Below are positions 2,211 through 16,452 of a DNA stretch of 37,063 nt, one piece after another; positions within the stretch are counted from its first letter, which is position 1; each line of letters begins with the position of its first letter. A model generated the notes under the pieces. That model ran no database searches and was not told where the DNA came from. It was given only the letters and a program-made list of their open reading frames with translations. The position numbers and the translations under genes are program-made. This stretch comes from Clostridia bacterium (GTDB lineage Bacteria; Bacillota; Clostridia; Peptostreptococcales; Anaerovoracaceae), in assembly GCA_024402995.1 (NCBI GenBank), contig JAKSSR010000006.1, forward strand, positions 1 through 37,063. The letters run 5' to 3'.

Positions 2211-3539
2211 CTAATCATCCATTTCTTCAAATGCTTCCAGGCCCTTCTTTGCTTCAGCCTTGGAGTCGCCGTGCTTTACGAAGAGCATGGTAACGCCGCT
2301 GAACGCTACGAAGAGAGCCGCATAGGGGAAGAGGACCTTGTAGCTGACGGTCCTCATGAGAGTACCTGCCAGAATGGGAGTAACTACCTGAGCAGCCATG
2401 GAAGCGGTGTAATAGTATCCGGTGAATTTGCCTATATCGCTGCCCTTGCACATTTCAACGACCATGGGCAGAGAGTTGACGTTAATGGCGGCCCATGCAA
2501 GACCTACCAGAGCAAATACTACGAACATGATAATATTGATTTCTTTGTAAGTGGTGGTCAGTACGTAACCCAGACCGAAGCAGACGGCAAGAAGAATGAC
2601 ACCTGCCAGGATGGTCTTCTTACGTCCGATCTTGGAAGCAAGCTGACCGATGGGGATGTAGGAAACGATAGCGCCGGCAGTGGCGATGAGCAGGCACTTG
2701 GAAGCACCGTTGAGTCCCTGTCCCATGACCTGGCTTACGTAGGTGGTGAACCAGGTGGTAACGCCGTTATAACCGATGAACCAGAGAGCTATGGAAGCAA
2801 GAAGGAAGCCGAGAGACTTCTTGACGTCGGCAGGAAGGATTTCATTGCCGCTTCCGTCGTCTTCAGCAAGATTCCATTCGGGATGCAGAGCCTCCAGAGC
2901 CTTGTTTTCCTCAACGAGAGCAGGCTCCTTAATGGTGACGTACAGCAGAGCTACGCCTACGGCCATAATACCGGCGACGACCATGAACAGAGGCTGATAA
3001 TTAATGTGCCCCGCGGCGTCGGGGACCAGTTTGATGACGGCGGCAACGCCCAGATAAATGATCCCGCCAACAGCACCCATTAGATTAATAATGGCATTGG
3101 CCTTGGAGCGGAGAGGCTTGGGAGTTACGTCCGGCATGAGGGCAACGGCAGGAGATCTGTAGGTGCCCATGGCTACCAGAAGCAGTCCGAGGATAACGAT
3201 AAAGGCTGCCATCTTTCCTGTGCTTGCCGCTGCGGCGTAGGAATTATCCAGCAGGGGCAGAAGATTGATGAGGACGACCGCAATGGTAGTTCCCGCAAGG
3301 ATAAAGGGCATACGCTTTCCGATCTTTGTGTTGGTCTTATCGGACAGAGTGCCGAAGAAAGGCAGCAGGAAGAGAGCAAGGACGTTATCAGCGGCCATGA
3401 TGACGCCGGAGAAAGTTTCGTTAAGATGGAAGGTGTTGGTCAGTATTAGGGGCACGATGTTGTCGTACATCTGCCAGAAAGCGCAGATCGAAAGAAACGC
3501 AAGACCGACCAGAATAGTTCTCTTGTTATTAAGCTTCAC
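2211..3539 (-). CDS. MFS transporter, SLC45-like
   Basis: A 442-residue polytopic membrane protein with about 12 hydrophobic segments. The loop after TM2 reads GTLSDKTNTKIGKRMPFILA, the MFS signature in the form common to SLC45/sugar-cation symporter-like Clostridia proteins. A second-half equivalent is GQLASKIGRKKTILAG. The start is GTG at 3539, chosen because AGGAGG lies eight bases upstream, and it overlaps the end of the HAD gene by 11 bases. The substrate is unknown. Its neighbours, a phosphatase and a GDPD, suggest a sugar, polyol or glycerophosphodiester; that is inference. Confidence 0.88.
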   Translation of the reverse strand: MKLNNKRTILVGLAFLSICAFWQMYDNIVPLILTNTFHLNETFSGVIMAADNVLALFLLPFFGTLSDKTNTKIGKRMPFILAGTTIAVVLINLLPLLDNSYAAAASTGKMAAFIVILGLLLVAMGTYRSPAVALMPDVTPKPLRSKANAIINLMGAVGGIIYLGVAAVIKLVPDAAGHINYQPLFMVVAGIMAVGVALLYVTIKEPALVEENKALEALHPEWNLAEDDGSGNEILPADVKKSLGFLLASIALWFIGYNGVTTWFTTYVSQVMGQGLNGASKCLLIATAGAIVSYIPIGQLASKIGRKKTILAGVILLAVCFGLGYVLTTTYKEINIIMFVVFALVGLAWAAINVNSLPMVVEMCKGSDIGKFTGYYYTASMAAQVVTPILAGTLMRTVSYKVLFPYAALFVAFSGVTMLFVKHGDSKAEAKKGLEAFEEMDD

Positions 3540-4341
3540 GGTTTTCCTCCTTTATGATCTCGTCAAGGACCTGACGTATTCCGTTGAAAATATATGCGGG
3601 CTTAATGCCGTATTTATCAATGTCTTCCATGGTTCCTTCGCCGGAGAGAACGAAGATAGTATCAATTCCGGCGTTGACACCGCAGAGAATGTCTGTATAG
3701 AGACGGTCGCCCATGAGAGCGGTCTCTTCTTTGCTGACGCCCACCTTCTGCATGGCGTAGTCAGCCATTTCCGGCTGGGGCTTGCCTATGACCACCGGTT
3801 CTCTTCCCGTTGCCGTCTTCAGCATCTGGATGACGCTTCCGCAGTCGGGAGCGTAGCCGTAGCTTACGGGACAGACCAGGTCGGGGTGAGTGGCAACGTA
3901 GTCACAGCCCCGGTTGAGAAGCCTGCAGCAATTCTCCAGTTTTTCGTAGGTCAGTTCAGTATCATATCCCAGCAGCACGACGCTCACGTAACCTGAAGCG
4001 CTTTCCGCGATGGTAAGACCGGCCTTTCTCAGCTGATCCTTCAGGGATTCGGTGCCGCAGACGTAGAAAACAGTATCGTCGCGGTACTTTTTCTTGAGAT
4101 ACATTATAGTGGCGTCGGCGGACGAGACGAAGTCGTCTGCAGAGGCCTGAATGCCCAGGCGGGCCATTTTAGCAACATATGCATCGGTTCCGCGGGACGA
4201 ATTGTTGGTCAGGAATATGTACCTTCCGCCCTTTTCCTTTACGTGGCGGAGAAAGTCCACCGTCCCGTCAAAGAGGGTGTCGTCAAGGTAAATGGTACCG
4301 TCCATGTCCAGCAGAAACAGTTTTTTTTCTGATAATGACAT
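3529..4341 (-). CDS. HAD-IIA family phosphatase (NagD/PGP-like)
   Basis: A 270-residue haloacid-dehalogenase hydrolase of subfamily IIA. Motif I is LLDMDGTIYLDD, with nucleophile D12 and acid/base D14. Motif II is FLTNNSSRG, and the C-terminal motif III/IV is ALMGDRLYTDILCGVNAG. The intervening C2A cap, residues about 75-190, is complete. Family members dephosphorylate small sugar or polyol phosphates; some, such as mammalian PGP and mycobacterial Rv1692, act on glycerol-3-phosphate. It is the first gene of the leftward operon, with a TGGTACAAT extended -10 at 4387-4395 on its strand. Specificity cannot be assigned from sequence alone. Confidence 0.9.
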   Translation of the reverse strand: MSLSEKKLFLLDMDGTIYLDDTLFDGTVDFLRHVKEKGGRYIFLTNNSSRGTDAYVAKMARLGIQASADDFVSSADATIMYLKKKYRDDTVFYVCGTESLKDQLRKAGLTIAESASGYVSVVLLGYDTELTYEKLENCCRLLNRGCDYVATHPDLVCPVSYGYAPDCGSVIQMLKTATGREPVVIGKPQPEMADYAMQKVGVSKEETALMGDRLYTDILCGVNAGIDTIFVLSGEGTMEDIDKYGIKPAYIFNGIRQVLDEIIKEENREA

Positions 4342-8061: not shown

Positions 8062-8673
8062 ATGGAATATGTAACAAGAGAAATGCTGGAGAGCGGAGAG
8101 ACCCTCCTCTCCCTTAAAAATACCTTTCTTGAAGAACAGAGCGGAGGAAATTTCATGGCCATGCTGGCCTGTATCATGGACTCTGTCGTCTGGGTCCCCG
8201 GCAAGCTTGTGTTCAGCGATGACGACCTTTCCAAAATTGTCAGCGGTCAGATCGGAGAGACCCTGAGAAACAGCGACGCCATCCGCTTTGTCCCCACCCT
8301 TTTCGGCACAGAGGAAGGCGGACGCTTCTACCCCATGTTCTCCAACGAGGCTCAGATCCCTCAGGAATTCTCTGACAGCAACTCACTTGTTGCCATGACG
8401 GGAGCCGAGTGCATACGCAGGGCCCGCGGCAGCAAAAACGCTGCGGGAGTAGTCCTTGACCCTCTCACTCAGGTCTGCACCATGCCCATGAACTACGTTG
8501 AGCTTATCGACAAACTGGAAAGCAGACTTTCTCCCGAGCAGCAGGAGGAAGACAAGGCTCATCCCATCAAGAACATGAAGCTTATAGTTCCCAAAGACGA
8601 TCAGGCAGCCGCCGAAGCAGAAGAGATCGCCAGAGCCAAGGCAGCTCAGGCAGGCCCTGTAATGCCCAACTAA
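8062..8673 (+). CDS. SseB-family protein
   Basis: A 203-residue soluble protein resembling the SseB N-terminal domain family (enhanced serine sensitivity). The diagnostic stretches are SVVWVPGKLVFSDDD, the strand before FVPTLFGTEEGGRFYPMFSN, and AAGVVLDPLTQVCTMPMNYV, which match the family's VP...LP.FTS.ea pattern and its hydrophobic closing strand. The tail from about residue 155 is charged and helical and ends in an Ala-rich stretch. The biochemical role of the family is not established. It is expressed from the extended -10 at 8012-8022, with GGAG before the start. Confidence 0.72.
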   Translation: MEYVTREMLESGETLLSLKNTFLEEQSGGNFMAMLACIMDSVVWVPGKLVFSDDDLSKIVSGQIGETLRNSDAIRFVPTLFGTEEGGRFYPMFSNEAQIPQEFSDSNSLVAMTGAECIRRARGSKNAAGVVLDPLTQVCTMPMNYVELIDKLESRLSPEQQEEDKAHPIKNMKLIVPKDDQAAAEAEEIARAKAAQAGPVMPN

Positions 8674-11935: not shown

Positions 11936-13075
11936 TTAATATAAAACGTATTTTTTGCGTCTTTCTTCAAAGACTTCCCTTCCCTGACGGTTCATCTCAA
12001 GGACCTCTTCAAGGGACCATTCATTGTTTTCGAAAAGACGGTGACCGGCAAGCAAGCTTATGAAAGGCAGGCTGGTCGTGGACTGTTCAGTGTACTGACG
12101 GAGTCCGAAATCATCGGGATAACTGCGGCGAAGAAGATCCAGCAGGCAGACGCCCACTGTGAGGGGCCTCAAAGCCGCGGCGTCGGTAACGTAAATGCGT
12201 ATGCCGCCGCAGAGGAGTCCCTGATGCTTGCTCCAGGTGGGAGTAAACCAATAGGGGCTTGCAAAGACGCCGGGAAGCTCCATGGCGTTGAAATCCTTTG
12301 CAAAGGTCTCAGCCTTGATATAAGGCGCTCCTATAAGCCTGAAAGGAGCTGATGTACCCCTTCCCTCCGAAACGTTGGTGCCTTCCAGCAGGCACAGCCC
12401 GGCGTAAAGACGCACGCTTTCGATGTCGGGCATAGCAGGACTGGTCATGAGCCAGGGGCGCTTCCAGTCTTCAAAGGTCATTCCCGCAGTATATCCGGCG
12501 CATTTAATTACAGTAAGGTCGAGATCCAGTTTTTCTTCGTCTTTGACCATCAGAGCAAATTCTCCGCAGGTCTGACCGTAAATGGCGGGGATATCATGAA
12601 AACCTACAAAGCTTTCCGTTTCCGGAGTTCTGATGCAGCCCTCCACCAGGTTTCCAAGAGGATTGGGCCTGTCCAGAACCACCAGACGCTTTCCGTGATC
12701 GGCGCACTGCCGCATGGCATGCTTCAGAGTCGAAATAAAGGTATAGAAGCGTGCTCCCACGTCCTGAATATCGTAAACCAGAGTGTCAAAGTAATCGAAG
12801 GCTTCTTCGGGCATATCGTATGAACCCTTGCGGTACATGCTCATCATGGGAAGACCGGATATGGCGTCAACGCCGCTTTCAAAGGGGACGCCGTCGGCAA
12901 GGTCTCCGCGTACACCGTGCTCAGGTGCGAGAAGCAAACGCAGATCAGCGGTCCTTTTAAGGAAATCAATGGAAGATTCGCCTTTGAGGGTCCGTCCGGA
13001 AGGAGCGCTCAGAAGAGCAAGTCTGCCGGAAAGGGCCTTAGGTTCTTCTTCAATTCTGTCAATACCGAAAAGCAT
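11936..13075 (-). CDS. namZ: DUF1343 / NamZ-type exo-beta-N-acetylmuramidase
   Basis: A 379-residue protein of the DUF1343 family, whose characterised member NamZ removes non-reducing-end MurNAc from peptidoglycan fragments. The family signatures are LLLAPEHGVRGDLADG, VYDIQDVGARFYTFISTL, VVLDRPNPLGN and SEGRGTSAPF. No secretion signal is visible, so it may act on imported muropeptides; secreted homologues exist. It heads the operon with mscS and dpaL. TATAAT on the minus strand at 13116-13121, with TTGCCC 18 bases upstream, forms its likely promoter. Activity on MurNAc is inferred from the family. Confidence 0.88.
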   Translation of the reverse strand: MLFGIDRIEEEPKALSGRLALLSAPSGRTLKGESSIDFLKRTADLRLLLAPEHGVRGDLADGVPFESGVDAISGLPMMSMYRKGSYDMPEEAFDYFDTLVYDIQDVGARFYTFISTLKHAMRQCADHGKRLVVLDRPNPLGNLVEGCIRTPETESFVGFHDIPAIYGQTCGEFALMVKDEEKLDLDLTVIKCAGYTAGMTFEDWKRPWLMTSPAMPDIESVRLYAGLCLLEGTNVSEGRGTSAPFRLIGAPYIKAETFAKDFNAMELPGVFASPYWFTPTWSKHQGLLCGGIRIYVTDAAALRPLTVGVCLLDLLRRSYPDDFGLRQYTEQSTTSLPFISLLAGHRLFENNEWSLEEVLEMNRQGREVFEERRKKYVLY

Positions 13076-13115
13076 GTTCCGCCTCCTCTCACTACATGTG
13101 GGTAAATAACGTCTT

Positions 13116-13159
13116 ATTATACACTTGATGTTGTCTTATGGGCAAGTGCGTAATATAAT
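13116..13159. promoter_or_regulatory. Overlapping divergent promoters, namZ / ADP-ribosylglycohydrolase
   Basis: Rightward: TTGTCT (13131-13136), 17 bases, TATAAT (13154-13159). Leftward: TTGCCC, 18 bases, TATAAT (13116-13121 on the minus strand). The two promoters overlap, so simultaneous firing should interfere. Confidence 0.65.
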
Positions 13160-13180
13160 TAGCAAAAAGGAGATTCTGCC

Positions 13181-14962
13181 ATGGGAAAAAATCTTAACAA
13201 ATTCCGCGGCTGCCTTATAGGCGGCGCAGCAGGCGATGCTCTGGGCTACGCAGTCGAGTTCATGTCATCCGAAGATATTTTCATCAAATACGGCGAAAAA
13301 GGGATTACCGCTTTCCAACTTCAGGACGGTAAAGCCCTTATTTCCGACGACACACAGATGACCCTCTTTACCGCCAACGGCCTGCTCTATGCGTCTACCA
13401 TGCAGCAGACAGGCGGCCCCTTTGAGTCTTATCCCGCGTCCATAGCTCTGGCCTACAGAGACTGGCTGCGGACCCAGCAGGCCTCCCAATCAAAAGGAAG
13501 CGTAAGCTGGCTCAACAATATTCCGGAAATGAACAGCAGACGTGCTCCCGGAAACACCTGCCTGACGGCTCTCGGCTCAGGCGTCTGCGGTAAAATAGCC
13601 GCTCCGGTCAATGACAGCAAGGGCTGCGGCGGAATAATGCGTGTTGCTCCCATAGGGCTCTATCTTCAGAGCCTCGGCTTTTCTCTTTACGACAGCGACT
13701 TGATCGCAGCGGAAGCGGCGGCAGTCACCCATGGTCATCCTCTGGGATACATGCCTGCGGCGGCTTTAGCTCAAATCATAGGCTACGCCGTAAACATGCC
13801 CGAATCCCCCCTGCTCTACAGCGTTATGAGCGCCAAGCACGCCCTGGGGAAAATATTCCCGAATGACGTTCATTTGAGCACAATGGCCGGCCTTATAGAC
13901 AAGGCCATCGAACTGTCCCTTATGGACCTGGACGATTTAGATGCCATCAGGCAGCTGGGCGAAGGCTGGACAGGTGAGGAATGCCTTGCCATTGCCATCT
14001 ATTGCTCACTGAAATACAGCGATAATTTCGAAGAAGCCCTCATTGCTTCCGTAAATCACGACGGCGACAGCGACAGCACGGGAGCCGTAACCGGCAATAT
14101 TCTCGGCGCTTATCTGGGAATGGACGCTATTCCGGGAAAATTCATTGAAAACCTGGAGCTGAAGGACGTTATTCTGGAAATAGCAGATGACCTTTACAAC
14201 GACTGCCCCATTTCCTACGATGACGTCATGGAGAACAAGGTCTGGGTAAGCAAATACATTAAGCATGACTACCGTCCCGGGGAAACGCTGCCCTCAGAAA
14301 TATCTGAAAAGGCGGAACTAGCCGAAAAAGAAAACGCCGCGGCAGAGGAGCAGATCCCCCCGGTCCGCGACATGCAGATGACAATAGACCTGGGACTGTT
14401 TGCGCCCATTGAAGAAGAACGGGAGCAGCCCAAAGTTCAGGGGAAACCTAAGCCTGGAGAAAAGGCCGAACTGAAAGAAAAGCATAAGGCTAAGGAAAAA
14501 GCAGAACCAAAGTCAACACCTTTAGTGCTGAAAAAGGCGGAGCGCAAGGAAAAGCCCACTCCTCCTCCGTCTCCCGCTCCAAAGAAAAACACAAAGGCAG
14601 AGCCTGAAGAGAAGCCCGCTCTCAGGCAGACGGCCGTCAAGCCCGCGGATCCCGGCAAAATCAAGTTCTACAAGTGGACCGACGCCACCTTCGGAGGCTA
14701 TGACGTCCTCGCAGTTTGCGATAAAAACGCGTACCTGAACCTATGCTTCAGCTTCGAAGGCTGCCCCATGGACGCCCTGTGCGAAAACGGTCTGTACTAT
14801 TTCCTCGTAGACAGCGACTGGAAGGAGATCACTCCCCTTCGCAAGACCGAATTCCTTCACCCCGATGGAAAACCCAGCCCCCAGGGCGACGAACTGAAGA
14901 AATATGCCTTTAACCCCGCCGCATACGACTACAGGGTGTACACTGATAAAGAACTGAAATAA
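13181..14962 (+). CDS. ADP-ribosylglycohydrolase with charged linker and extra C-terminal domain
   Basis: A 593-residue protein in three parts. Residues 1-350 form a DraG-type ADP-ribosylglycohydrolase. They start GCLIGGAAGDALGYAVEF, with the first metal ligands in ISDDTQMT (D56, D57, T58) and the second cluster in NHDGDSDSTGAVTGN (D294, D296, D298, T300), so the two-Mg site looks intact. Residues about 370-490 are a Lys/Glu/Pro/Ala-rich low-complexity linker (KEKHKAKEKAEPK, PPPSPAPKK). Residues about 494-593 form a compact, unrecognised domain with FYKWTDATFGGYDVLAVCDK and KTEFLHPDGKPSPQGDEL. The family removes ADP-ribose from proteins or nucleic acids; the target here is unknown. It is a single gene with its own promoter and AAAGGAG site. 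Confidence 0.88.
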   Translation: MGKNLNKFRGCLIGGAAGDALGYAVEFMSSEDIFIKYGEKGITAFQLQDGKALISDDTQMTLFTANGLLYASTMQQTGGPFESYPASIALAYRDWLRTQQASQSKGSVSWLNNIPEMNSRRAPGNTCLTALGSGVCGKIAAPVNDSKGCGGIMRVAPIGLYLQSLGFSLYDSDLIAAEAAAVTHGHPLGYMPAAALAQIIGYAVNMPESPLLYSVMSAKHALGKIFPNDVHLSTMAGLIDKAIELSLMDLDDLDAIRQLGEGWTGEECLAIAIYCSLKYSDNFEEALIASVNHDGDSDSTGAVTGNILGAYLGMDAIPGKFIENLELKDVILEIADDLYNDCPISYDDVMENKVWVSKYIKHDYRPGETLPSEISEKAELAEKENAAAEEQIPPVRDMQMTIDLGLFAPIEEEREQPKVQGKPKPGEKAELKEKHKAKEKAEPKSTPLVLKKAERKEKPTPPPSPAPKKNTKAEPEEKPALRQTAVKPADPGKIKFYKWTDATFGGYDVLAVCDKNAYLNLCFSFEGCPMDALCENGLYYFLVDSDWKEITPLRKTEFLHPDGKPSPQGDELKKYAFNPAAYDYRVYTDKELK

Positions 14963-15025
14963 TACATACTGCCTAATAAAGACCTAATATATCTATAGGA
15001 CAATATTCGCTGATCATAGTATTAT

Positions 15026-15061
15026 AAAGCGTTGGAATTCCAATAATTCCAACGCTTTTTT
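15026..15061. terminator. Intrinsic terminator
   Basis: A perfect 14-bp stem, AAAGCGTTGGAATT (15026-15039) with AATTCCAACGCTTT (15045-15058), followed by further Ts. It ends the ADP-ribosylglycohydrolase transcript and may also serve the MATE gene from the other side. The rest of the gap from 14963 shows nothing further. Confidence 0.88.
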
Positions 15062-15081
15062 CATAGCTTTTTCTTTTACAG

Positions 15082-16452
15082 TTATGCGTCCTGTCCACGG
15101 GGAACATCTTTGAAGATCTTCCGAAGAACGACTATGGCAGCTATGGCAAGAATGAACTCAGACGTGGGTTGGGCAGCGGCAAGTCCATTTATGGGGAAGA
15201 TACGGTTCCATATGAAGAGCGCCGGGATCTCCAATACGATTTTGCGCAGAACCGCAAAAATAAGAGATTTCCGTCCCATTCCGCAAGCCTGAAAAACACC
15301 GACGGCGATAAAGTCCATGGCCATGCATGGAATGGTGACCGACGCTATGCGCAGGAATACTTCACCGTACGATACTATATCGGCATCTTTAATGAAAAAG
15401 GTCATAAGCTTTCCGGGGAAGATGAATGTTCCCAGGGCCATAACAATAGCGATCCCCATGGAGATCTTCAGAGTAAAGCGAAATACATCCTTCATGCGCT
15501 TTCTGTCGCCCGAAGAATAGTTGTAGCTGATCAAGGGTGTGATCCCGTTGGAAACGCCGATTGCCATCATGAGGGGCACCATAATGATTTTATGAGAAAT
15601 GCCTACGGCAGACACCACCGCGGGACCGTAAGCTGACGCGAAATTATTGAGCACAGTCTGGCCGGTAACGTTGAGAAGATTCTGTATGGCGGCGGGCACT
15701 CCTACATTAAAAACAGGCTTGGCAATGCCCTTCTGTGCGGCAAAGTCTTTCCACTTAAAGGATACGAAAGTCTTTTCTTTCTTGACAGCTATGAGTATGA
15801 GGAAATACAGCACCGCCACGCTGTTTGAAATAAACGTAGCGAGACCTGCGCCGGCAGCTCCCATTCCGAGAAAACGTGGAAGTATGAAGAAGGGATCCAG
15901 TATCACGTTGAGTATGCAGCCGCTCATGGTGCCTATAGTCGCATGCATTGCTGCCCCTTCAGCTCTTATAAGGTATCCCAGAACGACGTTAAGTATGGAC
16001 GGCACTGCTCCGCAGATGACTGTCCAGAATATGTATTCTGACGTGACTGCATAGGTATCCGCCGTAGCGCCGAGAAGCTTCAGGAAAAATGGTCTGAAAG
16101 CTAAAAACACTCCGGAAAACACAAAGCCGGAAATCAAGGCCCAATATATTCCGAAAGCGCTGGTTCTTCTGGTCGTGTCATGATCTCTTACGCCGAGGCA
16201 GCGGCTCATGTAACTTCCGGTGCCCACACCGAAGAGATTGTTCACGGCATTGAAGGCAAGAAGCACCGGCGACGCGAGAGTTACCGCCGAGCTTTCAATG
16301 GAACTGTTGAGCGCCCCTACAAAATAGGTATCCGCCATGCTGTAAAGCATCATGACAAGGGAACCTATAATGCTTGGTATGCACATTTTGGCAACAGCCT
16401 GGGGAACAGGCATAGTTTCAAATAAATCTTTTTTTGTATTTTCTTCTGACAT
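15082..16452 (-). CDS. MATE-family multidrug/metabolite efflux transporter
   Basis: A 456-residue polytopic membrane protein of the MATE family with about 12 helices. The N-terminal FETMPVPQAVAKMCIPSIIGSLVMMLYSMADTYFVG is the classic MATE start. The second half starts at IAKPVFNVGVPAAIQNLLNVTG. These pumps exchange H+ or Na+ for cationic drugs or metabolites. The gene follows 25 bases behind the truncated MocR regulator on the same strand, so the regulator probably governs it. It differs in sequence from the other MATE protein at 21880-23250. Confidence 0.93.
   Translation of the reverse strand: MSEENTKKDLFETMPVPQAVAKMCIPSIIGSLVMMLYSMADTYFVGALNSSIESSAVTLASPVLLAFNAVNNLFGVGTGSYMSRCLGVRDHDTTRRTSAFGIYWALISGFVFSGVFLAFRPFFLKLLGATADTYAVTSEYIFWTVICGAVPSILNVVLGYLIRAEGAAMHATIGTMSGCILNVILDPFFILPRFLGMGAAGAGLATFISNSVAVLYFLILIAVKKEKTFVSFKWKDFAAQKGIAKPVFNVGVPAAIQNLLNVTGQTVLNNFASAYGPAVVSAVGISHKIIMVPLMMAIGVSNGITPLISYNYSSGDRKRMKDVFRFTLKISMGIAIVMALGTFIFPGKLMTFFIKDADIVSYGEVFLRIASVTIPCMAMDFIAVGVFQACGMGRKSLIFAVLRKIVLEIPALFIWNRIFPINGLAAAQPTSEFILAIAAIVVLRKIFKDVPRGQDA

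Follow-up and report, generated by a model that had tools for sequence, protein, structure and literature searches.

A predicted single-gene ADP-ribosylhydrolase of the ARH/DraG family with a long charged linker and an unplaced C-terminal tail

Introduction

Among the closest described systems to the gene presented here are those laid out by Iyer and colleagues, in whose paper ARG domains are described as coupled to phosphatases, Macro domains, NADAR domains and chaperones without a transferase, an arrangement proposed to undo viral ADP-ribosylation (PMC9503650). Actinobacteria, planctomycetes and proteobacteria are among the various lineages in which these ARG-centred systems have been reported, and the operons carry a Nudix or WYL one-component regulator in more than 42% of cases and a coupled phosphatase in slightly more than 55%; peptide-binding chaperones with an SseB domain are also linked to them (PMC9503650). 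Related enzymes are known from toxin immunity. In gut Bacteroides the ART toxin Bxa is countered by the ARH immunity protein BAH, which stands beside the blocker Bsi (PMC11699363), and Imm-ARG occurs with RSE-type ART toxins, with Imm35 sometimes fused to an ADP-ribosyl glycohydrolase (PMC3482391).

Here we describe a 593-residue ADP-ribosylhydrolase from a Clostridia bacterium, encoded within a 37,063-nucleotide stretch of DNA that was analysed as a whole and is called the window below. The protein joins an ARH/DraG catalytic domain to a charged linker and a C-terminal tail, and no report of an ARH with such a linker and tail was found in the literature searched.

Results

Gene and surroundings

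The gene, comprising catalytic domain, linker and tail (13181..14962, + strand), was called as a single open reading frame with a PF03747 match, an ATG start and, as seen in the sequence, an AAGGAG-type ribosome site ahead of it. A sigma-70-type promoter-like site, TTGTCT-17-TATAAT, lies at 13131..13159 (+) and agrees with the consensus at 10 of 12 positions; it is a consensus match only, from a scan that returned five such sites in 13000-15200 against 1.7 in shuffles. Both neighbours, NamZ (11936-13075) and a MATE transporter (15082-16452), are on the opposite strand, so that the ARH gene stands alone, and other ordinary genes (TrmD, GAPDH and IspH-S1) are also nearby in the window. At 15028-15061, inspection by eye revealed a perfect inverted repeat, with 12-base arms around a 5-base loop and a run of five T after it, which is likely a terminator between the ARH gene and the convergent MATE gene; the consensus scan has no entry for this repeat. 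The source genome is a draft assembly whose 120 contigs total 1.69 Mb, with a completeness of 83.73%, and contains one copy of the ARH gene in a search at E 0.01.

The catalytic domain

On sequence evidence, residues 1-345 (13181..14215, +) belong to the ARH/DraG family of ADP-ribosylhydrolases, with predicted activity. The initial annotation had named the protein an ADP-ribosylglycohydrolase that retains both acidic metal clusters, and both points held up. The PF03747 match spans residues 10-318, with E 2.1e-62 (211.8 bits against a cut-off of 26.2), and motif reading and alignment place the first cluster at SDDT (residues 55-58; 13343..13354, +) and the second at HDGDSDST (residues 293-300; 14057..14080, +), both intact, as is GCGGIMR (148-154); THGH is present at 183-186. 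Across a 42-row alignment R154, H184 and G295 are invariant and position 56 is D in 40 rows, with a gap in the remaining two. Position 57 is D in 29 of the 42 rows, and position 296 is split between D (26 rows) and N (16 rows); because these metal-site positions vary, the same activity is not required of all relatives.

The AF2 model built with the 42-row alignment has block pLDDT values of at least 82 over residues 1-370, except for residues 101-110 (75), and the catalytic blocks are mostly above 90. Its catalytic part adopts the all-helical ARH fold, superposing on ARH3 2qty with Z 38.1 and rmsd 2.6 over 302 residues. Structural comparison by VIA-align, in which the full-length model probes residues 1-344 only, gave Z scores of 36-38 for ARH3, about 36 for ARH1, near 34.7 for 6dre (Tri1) and for Lmo0067, and 33-34 for DraG, with 276-310 residues aligned at rmsd 2.3-3.0. 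According to their entry titles, 6dre and 8za7 (Lmo0067) are members of toxin-immunity pairs; nothing on lmo0067 was found in the literature searched. The scores against the DraG equivalog TIGR02662 (77.8 bits against 337.05) and the Tri1 immunity equivalog NF041672 (60.7 bits against 490) lie far below their cut-offs, which places the protein in the family with neither named function.

The linker

A long charged Lys/Glu/Pro linker had been claimed, and composition bears this out: residues 371-493 (14291..14659, +) are 63% K/E/P/A and 0.8% aromatic. In the full-length AF2 run residues 371-390 form a helix, with block pLDDT values of 62 and 78, and the values over residues 391-490 are 30-43. 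Post hoc motif reading picked out one hydrophobic patch in the linker, DLGLF (residues 403-407; 14387..14401, +), which differs by one letter from QLGLF, given as the Pol II clamp-binding peptide in PMC3716654. Across 26 window proteins, which total 9545 aa, the pattern xLxLF occurs four times; when residues 346-493 were shuffled 20,000 times, it arose in 0.23% of the shuffles.

The C-terminal tail

Residues 494-593 (14660..14959, +) form a tail that is 18% aromatic and 35% hydrophobic and contains four cysteines and two tryptophans. This composition is that of a folded domain, sharply unlike the linker. The GC3 of residues 489-593 is 0.70, compared with 0.55-0.66 in nine other genes of the window, a slightly higher value that fits coding sequence. 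The only candidate start codons between residues 441 and 545 are GTG at 449 and ATG at 530, leaving the tail without an obvious start of its own. Modelled alone from a single sequence, the tail reached a mean AF2 pLDDT of 43.1, and the full-length AF2 model shows strands and a helix from residue 494 on with block pLDDT values of 41-62. Single-sequence AF2 runs often yield a poor model. As both runs had one sequence for the tail, they do not decide between fold and disorder, and neither of the outcomes that the initial annotation had named as refuting it, a known domain or predicted disorder, is established or excluded.

The initial annotation had been unable to place this segment and had proposed profile and structure searches with it. 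The tail proved just as unplaceable here: Pfam, NCBIfam, PHROGs and PADLOC gave no match above the cut-off, plasmids, phages and viral contigs gave none, and nothing in any search was better than chance. The proposed profile search thus returned no trustworthy match; the structure search did not succeed, since Foldseek, run on the model of the tail by itself (pLDDT 43.1), found none at E 0.001, had a best E of 0.43 and is not interpretable. With the Pfam threshold relaxed to E 10, PF20494 was the sole match and no Pfam immunity domain was found; PF20494 itself, with E 0.088-0.14 over 21-22 residues and a score of 12.7-13.3 bits where the cut-off is 27, was rejected as chance. A single weak match to a PDB sequence, 5coz at E 0.59, was also rejected.

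Genome samples of the family, order and phylum, which overlap and each represent part of a larger group, gave a similar picture. The tail was found at E 0.001 in one of 197 family genomes and in one of 398 phylum genomes, namely itself in both cases, and at E 0.05 in seven of 393 order genomes, which are itself and six chance-level matches (E 0.005-0.04). The longest of the six (L034) runs antisense within a 739-aa ORF, and the five others span only 30-54 residues at 24-40% identity; all six were rejected. The C-terminal extensions of three viral-contig ARHs (L060, L064 and L079; 139-169 residues) have no phmmer match to the tail at E 10, and a BLASTP match of the L064 extension to linker plus tail was rejected at E 0.60. 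Among the 99 nearest genomes (the full list) there is no other from the same genus, so the closest possible tail carriers lie outside the sample.

Distribution of the catalytic domain

The catalytic domain was found, counting the genome's own copy, in 29 of the 99 nearest genomes at E 1e-20 and in 15 of 391 genomes of the class at E 1e-60; in the family of the best match it was present in 3 of 206 genomes at E 1e-80. A named record, Clostridia bacterium UC5.1-1D10, contains a 58% match in two frames. Past position 345 the open frame continues for -5 to 32 residues (median 9) in all 44 cellular homologues, compared with 248 residues here. The tail is therefore absent from 44 of 44 and looks like a lineage-restricted add-on, judged from these sequences.

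A tree of 42 rows, built without L045, L053 and L054, places the gene beside the UC5.1-1D10 copy and a copy from family f51 at a support of 85/86, below the 95/80 mark, and other f1 genes are scattered over several places. With one of its two nearest neighbours from another family and the other, UC5.1-1D10, of unstated family, the placement weakly fits horizontal transfer. The nearest viral-contig relative (L055:512-1651) comes from an IMG/VR contig and is 57% identical; a single 106-aa ORF separates this ARH from a serine recombinase, which makes carriage of the subfamily by mobile elements probable.

Fusion partners of relatives

PARG_cat_microb (PF10021) lies N-terminal to ARH in a 691-aa protein (L043:544-2616), and the same order recurs at L045:2041-3534 (-), broken by one in-frame stop. 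At L004:817-1519 a PARG piece is upstream of ARH and adjacent, in two frames. PARG is thus fused in two of the 44 cellular homologues, both from the same class, and adjacent in one, and PF10021 was found in no other of 54 loci nor in the window (most flanks 1.5 kb). The PARG-ARH fusion is a predicted two-eraser protein.

The viral-contig set comprises 26 loci, of which four long proteins were Pfam-scanned, with L060, also long, outside the scan. A dual-specificity-type phosphatase is N-terminal to ARH in two of the four (L064:2398-4497 and L072:2422-4008) and C-terminal in a third (L079:2926-4383), and the fourth, L062, has an ARH domain alone. These phosphatase fusions on viral contigs agree with PMC9503650.

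Transferase and other partner genes

The lack of an adjacent ADP-ribosyltransferase gene, also claimed at the outset, was upheld: no ART domain was detected among the 30 window ORFs scanned (20 by Pfam, 10 by NCBIfam; 86 ORFs of at least 80 aa are listed, the rest mostly overlapping), and no DraT or ART toxin gene was seen there. The same 30 ORFs gave no Nudix or WYL match, and Pfam found no phosphatase domain in the ARH gene or its direct neighbours; a HAD-type hydrolase is encoded at 3529-4341, about 9 kb from the ARH gene. An ORF with an SseB N-terminal domain lies at 8062-8673, 4.5 kb from the ARH gene with four genes between, and a search of 80 loci at E 0.01, most with flanks of 1.5-3 kb, returned no SseB. 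DarT was not found in the source genome, in a search whose control was positive in one of 14 genomes, and the zero matches in the source genome to PF03496 and PARG_cat_microb are uninformative since the control genomes also gave zero. With the genome a draft that is 83.73% complete, a missing transferase is weak evidence. One Macro-domain gene is present in this genome (L052; G000:C1:45968-46306).

Discussion

The reading that we prefer, tentatively and with rather less than even confidence, is that the gene encodes a stand-alone eraser of ADP-ribose laid down from outside, tethered through its tail to the target or to the invading transferase. An outside enzyme, such as a toxin from a competitor or a transferase from a phage, would ADP-ribosylate a macromolecule, most likely on a protein side chain, and the single-gene, metal-dependent ARH/DraG hydrolase would strip the ADP-ribose off again. 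The charged linker would act as a flexible tether, and the tail of 100 residues would be a binding module, specific to this lineage, that holds the enzyme near the target or the invading transferase. We infer the enzymatic activity, the outside source of the modification, the folding of the tail and its role, and a recognition domain that would steer the enzyme to its target is a plausible view of the tail. Neither a partner gene nor a tail homologue was found and AF2 gave no confident model of the tail, so tethering is a guess drawn from the architecture. The PF03747 match with intact motifs, the superposition on solved ARH structures, the 30 scanned ORFs without an ART domain, the DarT search, the patchy distribution of the catalytic domain and the fusion of relatives to other modules count in favour of a stand-alone eraser, with precedents in BAH (PMC11699363) and in the ARG-centred systems (PMC9503650); a mobile conflict gene would also be expected to turn up near a serine recombinase, as the 57% identical copy does. 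That neither a Nudix or WYL regulator nor a coupled phosphatase was seen beside the gene counts against it.

We considered two other functions. The enzyme could be a housekeeping ADP-ribosylhydrolase that reverses the cell's own modifications, in DraG-like regulation or clean-up, with a recently recruited tail that is inert or merely stabilising. The ordinary genes around it (NamZ, MATE, TrmD, GAPDH and IspH-S1), a promoter-like site of its own and the 44 of 44 homologues found without a tail would all suit this role, which we nevertheless consider somewhat unlikely given that neither an ART partner among the 30 window ORFs nor DarT in the source genome was seen, that the family is patchy rather than core, and that the DraG equivalog score is 77.8 against 337.05. 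Slightly less favoured again, and in our judgement unlikely, is an enzymatic immunity protein offering two-way protection, in which ARH would reverse a toxin's ADP-ribosylation and the linker and tail would block the toxin physically. Such a role has precedents in known ARH immunity proteins, including Imm-ARG and the Imm35 fusions (PMC3482391), in 6dre and Lmo0067 as members of toxin-immunity pairs by their entry titles, and in BAH beside the blocker Bsi (PMC11699363); set against these are the 30 scanned ORFs without an ART toxin gene and a tail without a Pfam immunity domain up to E 10.

The tail could be disordered or decayed sequence rather than a domain, as the AF2 pLDDT of 43.1 alone and 41-62 by block in context might suggest, together with the lack of a tail homologue in any collection searched. 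We regard this as improbable, since 18% aromatic and 35% hydrophobic residues set the tail apart from the linker, its GC3 is 0.70, strands are modelled from residue 494 on, and single-sequence AF2 runs are often poor. A far more speculative idea, which we consider very improbable, is that linker and tail form a new targeting module in which DLGLF docks the hydrolase on the replication sliding clamp and the tail reads the modified substrate, so that DNA or replication proteins at the fork would be cleared of ADP-ribose under toxin or phage attack; with a motif chosen post hoc and a linker absent from the 44 cellular homologues, this stays a lead.

A separable, apparently lineage-restricted tail on a single-gene enzyme would provide a clean test of how bacterial ADP-ribosylhydrolases that lack a partner transferase select their substrates. 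Our survey also shows same-class relatives with a PARG domain and distant viral-contig relatives with a phosphatase.

Compared with known systems, the protein shares its catalytic fold and the SDDT and GDSDST-type motifs with the solved PF03747 members ARH3, ARH1, DraG, 6dre, Lmo0067 and MJ1187, whose best-matching stretches lie within its residues 4-343, none reaching the linker or tail. The PARG-ARH fusion L043 belongs to the same ARH subfamily and is 50% identical over the catalytic domain; in both L043 and L045, however, the second module is an N-terminal PARG and there is no C-terminal tail. With the ARG-centred systems, as PMC9503650 describes them, the gene has in common an ARG domain that has no transferase next to it and comes with an additional, variable module, whereas their Nudix or WYL regulator, phosphatase and chaperone do not adjoin it and its own module is the unplaced tail. 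The pairing of BAH and Bsi, likened here by its description in PMC11699363, shares the idea of an enzymatic eraser with a physical blocker, carried there by two separate proteins, unlike the single 593-aa protein. The enzyme itself is of a known kind; neither a report nor a homologue with its linker and tail was found, which makes it a variant of that kind, not a new system.
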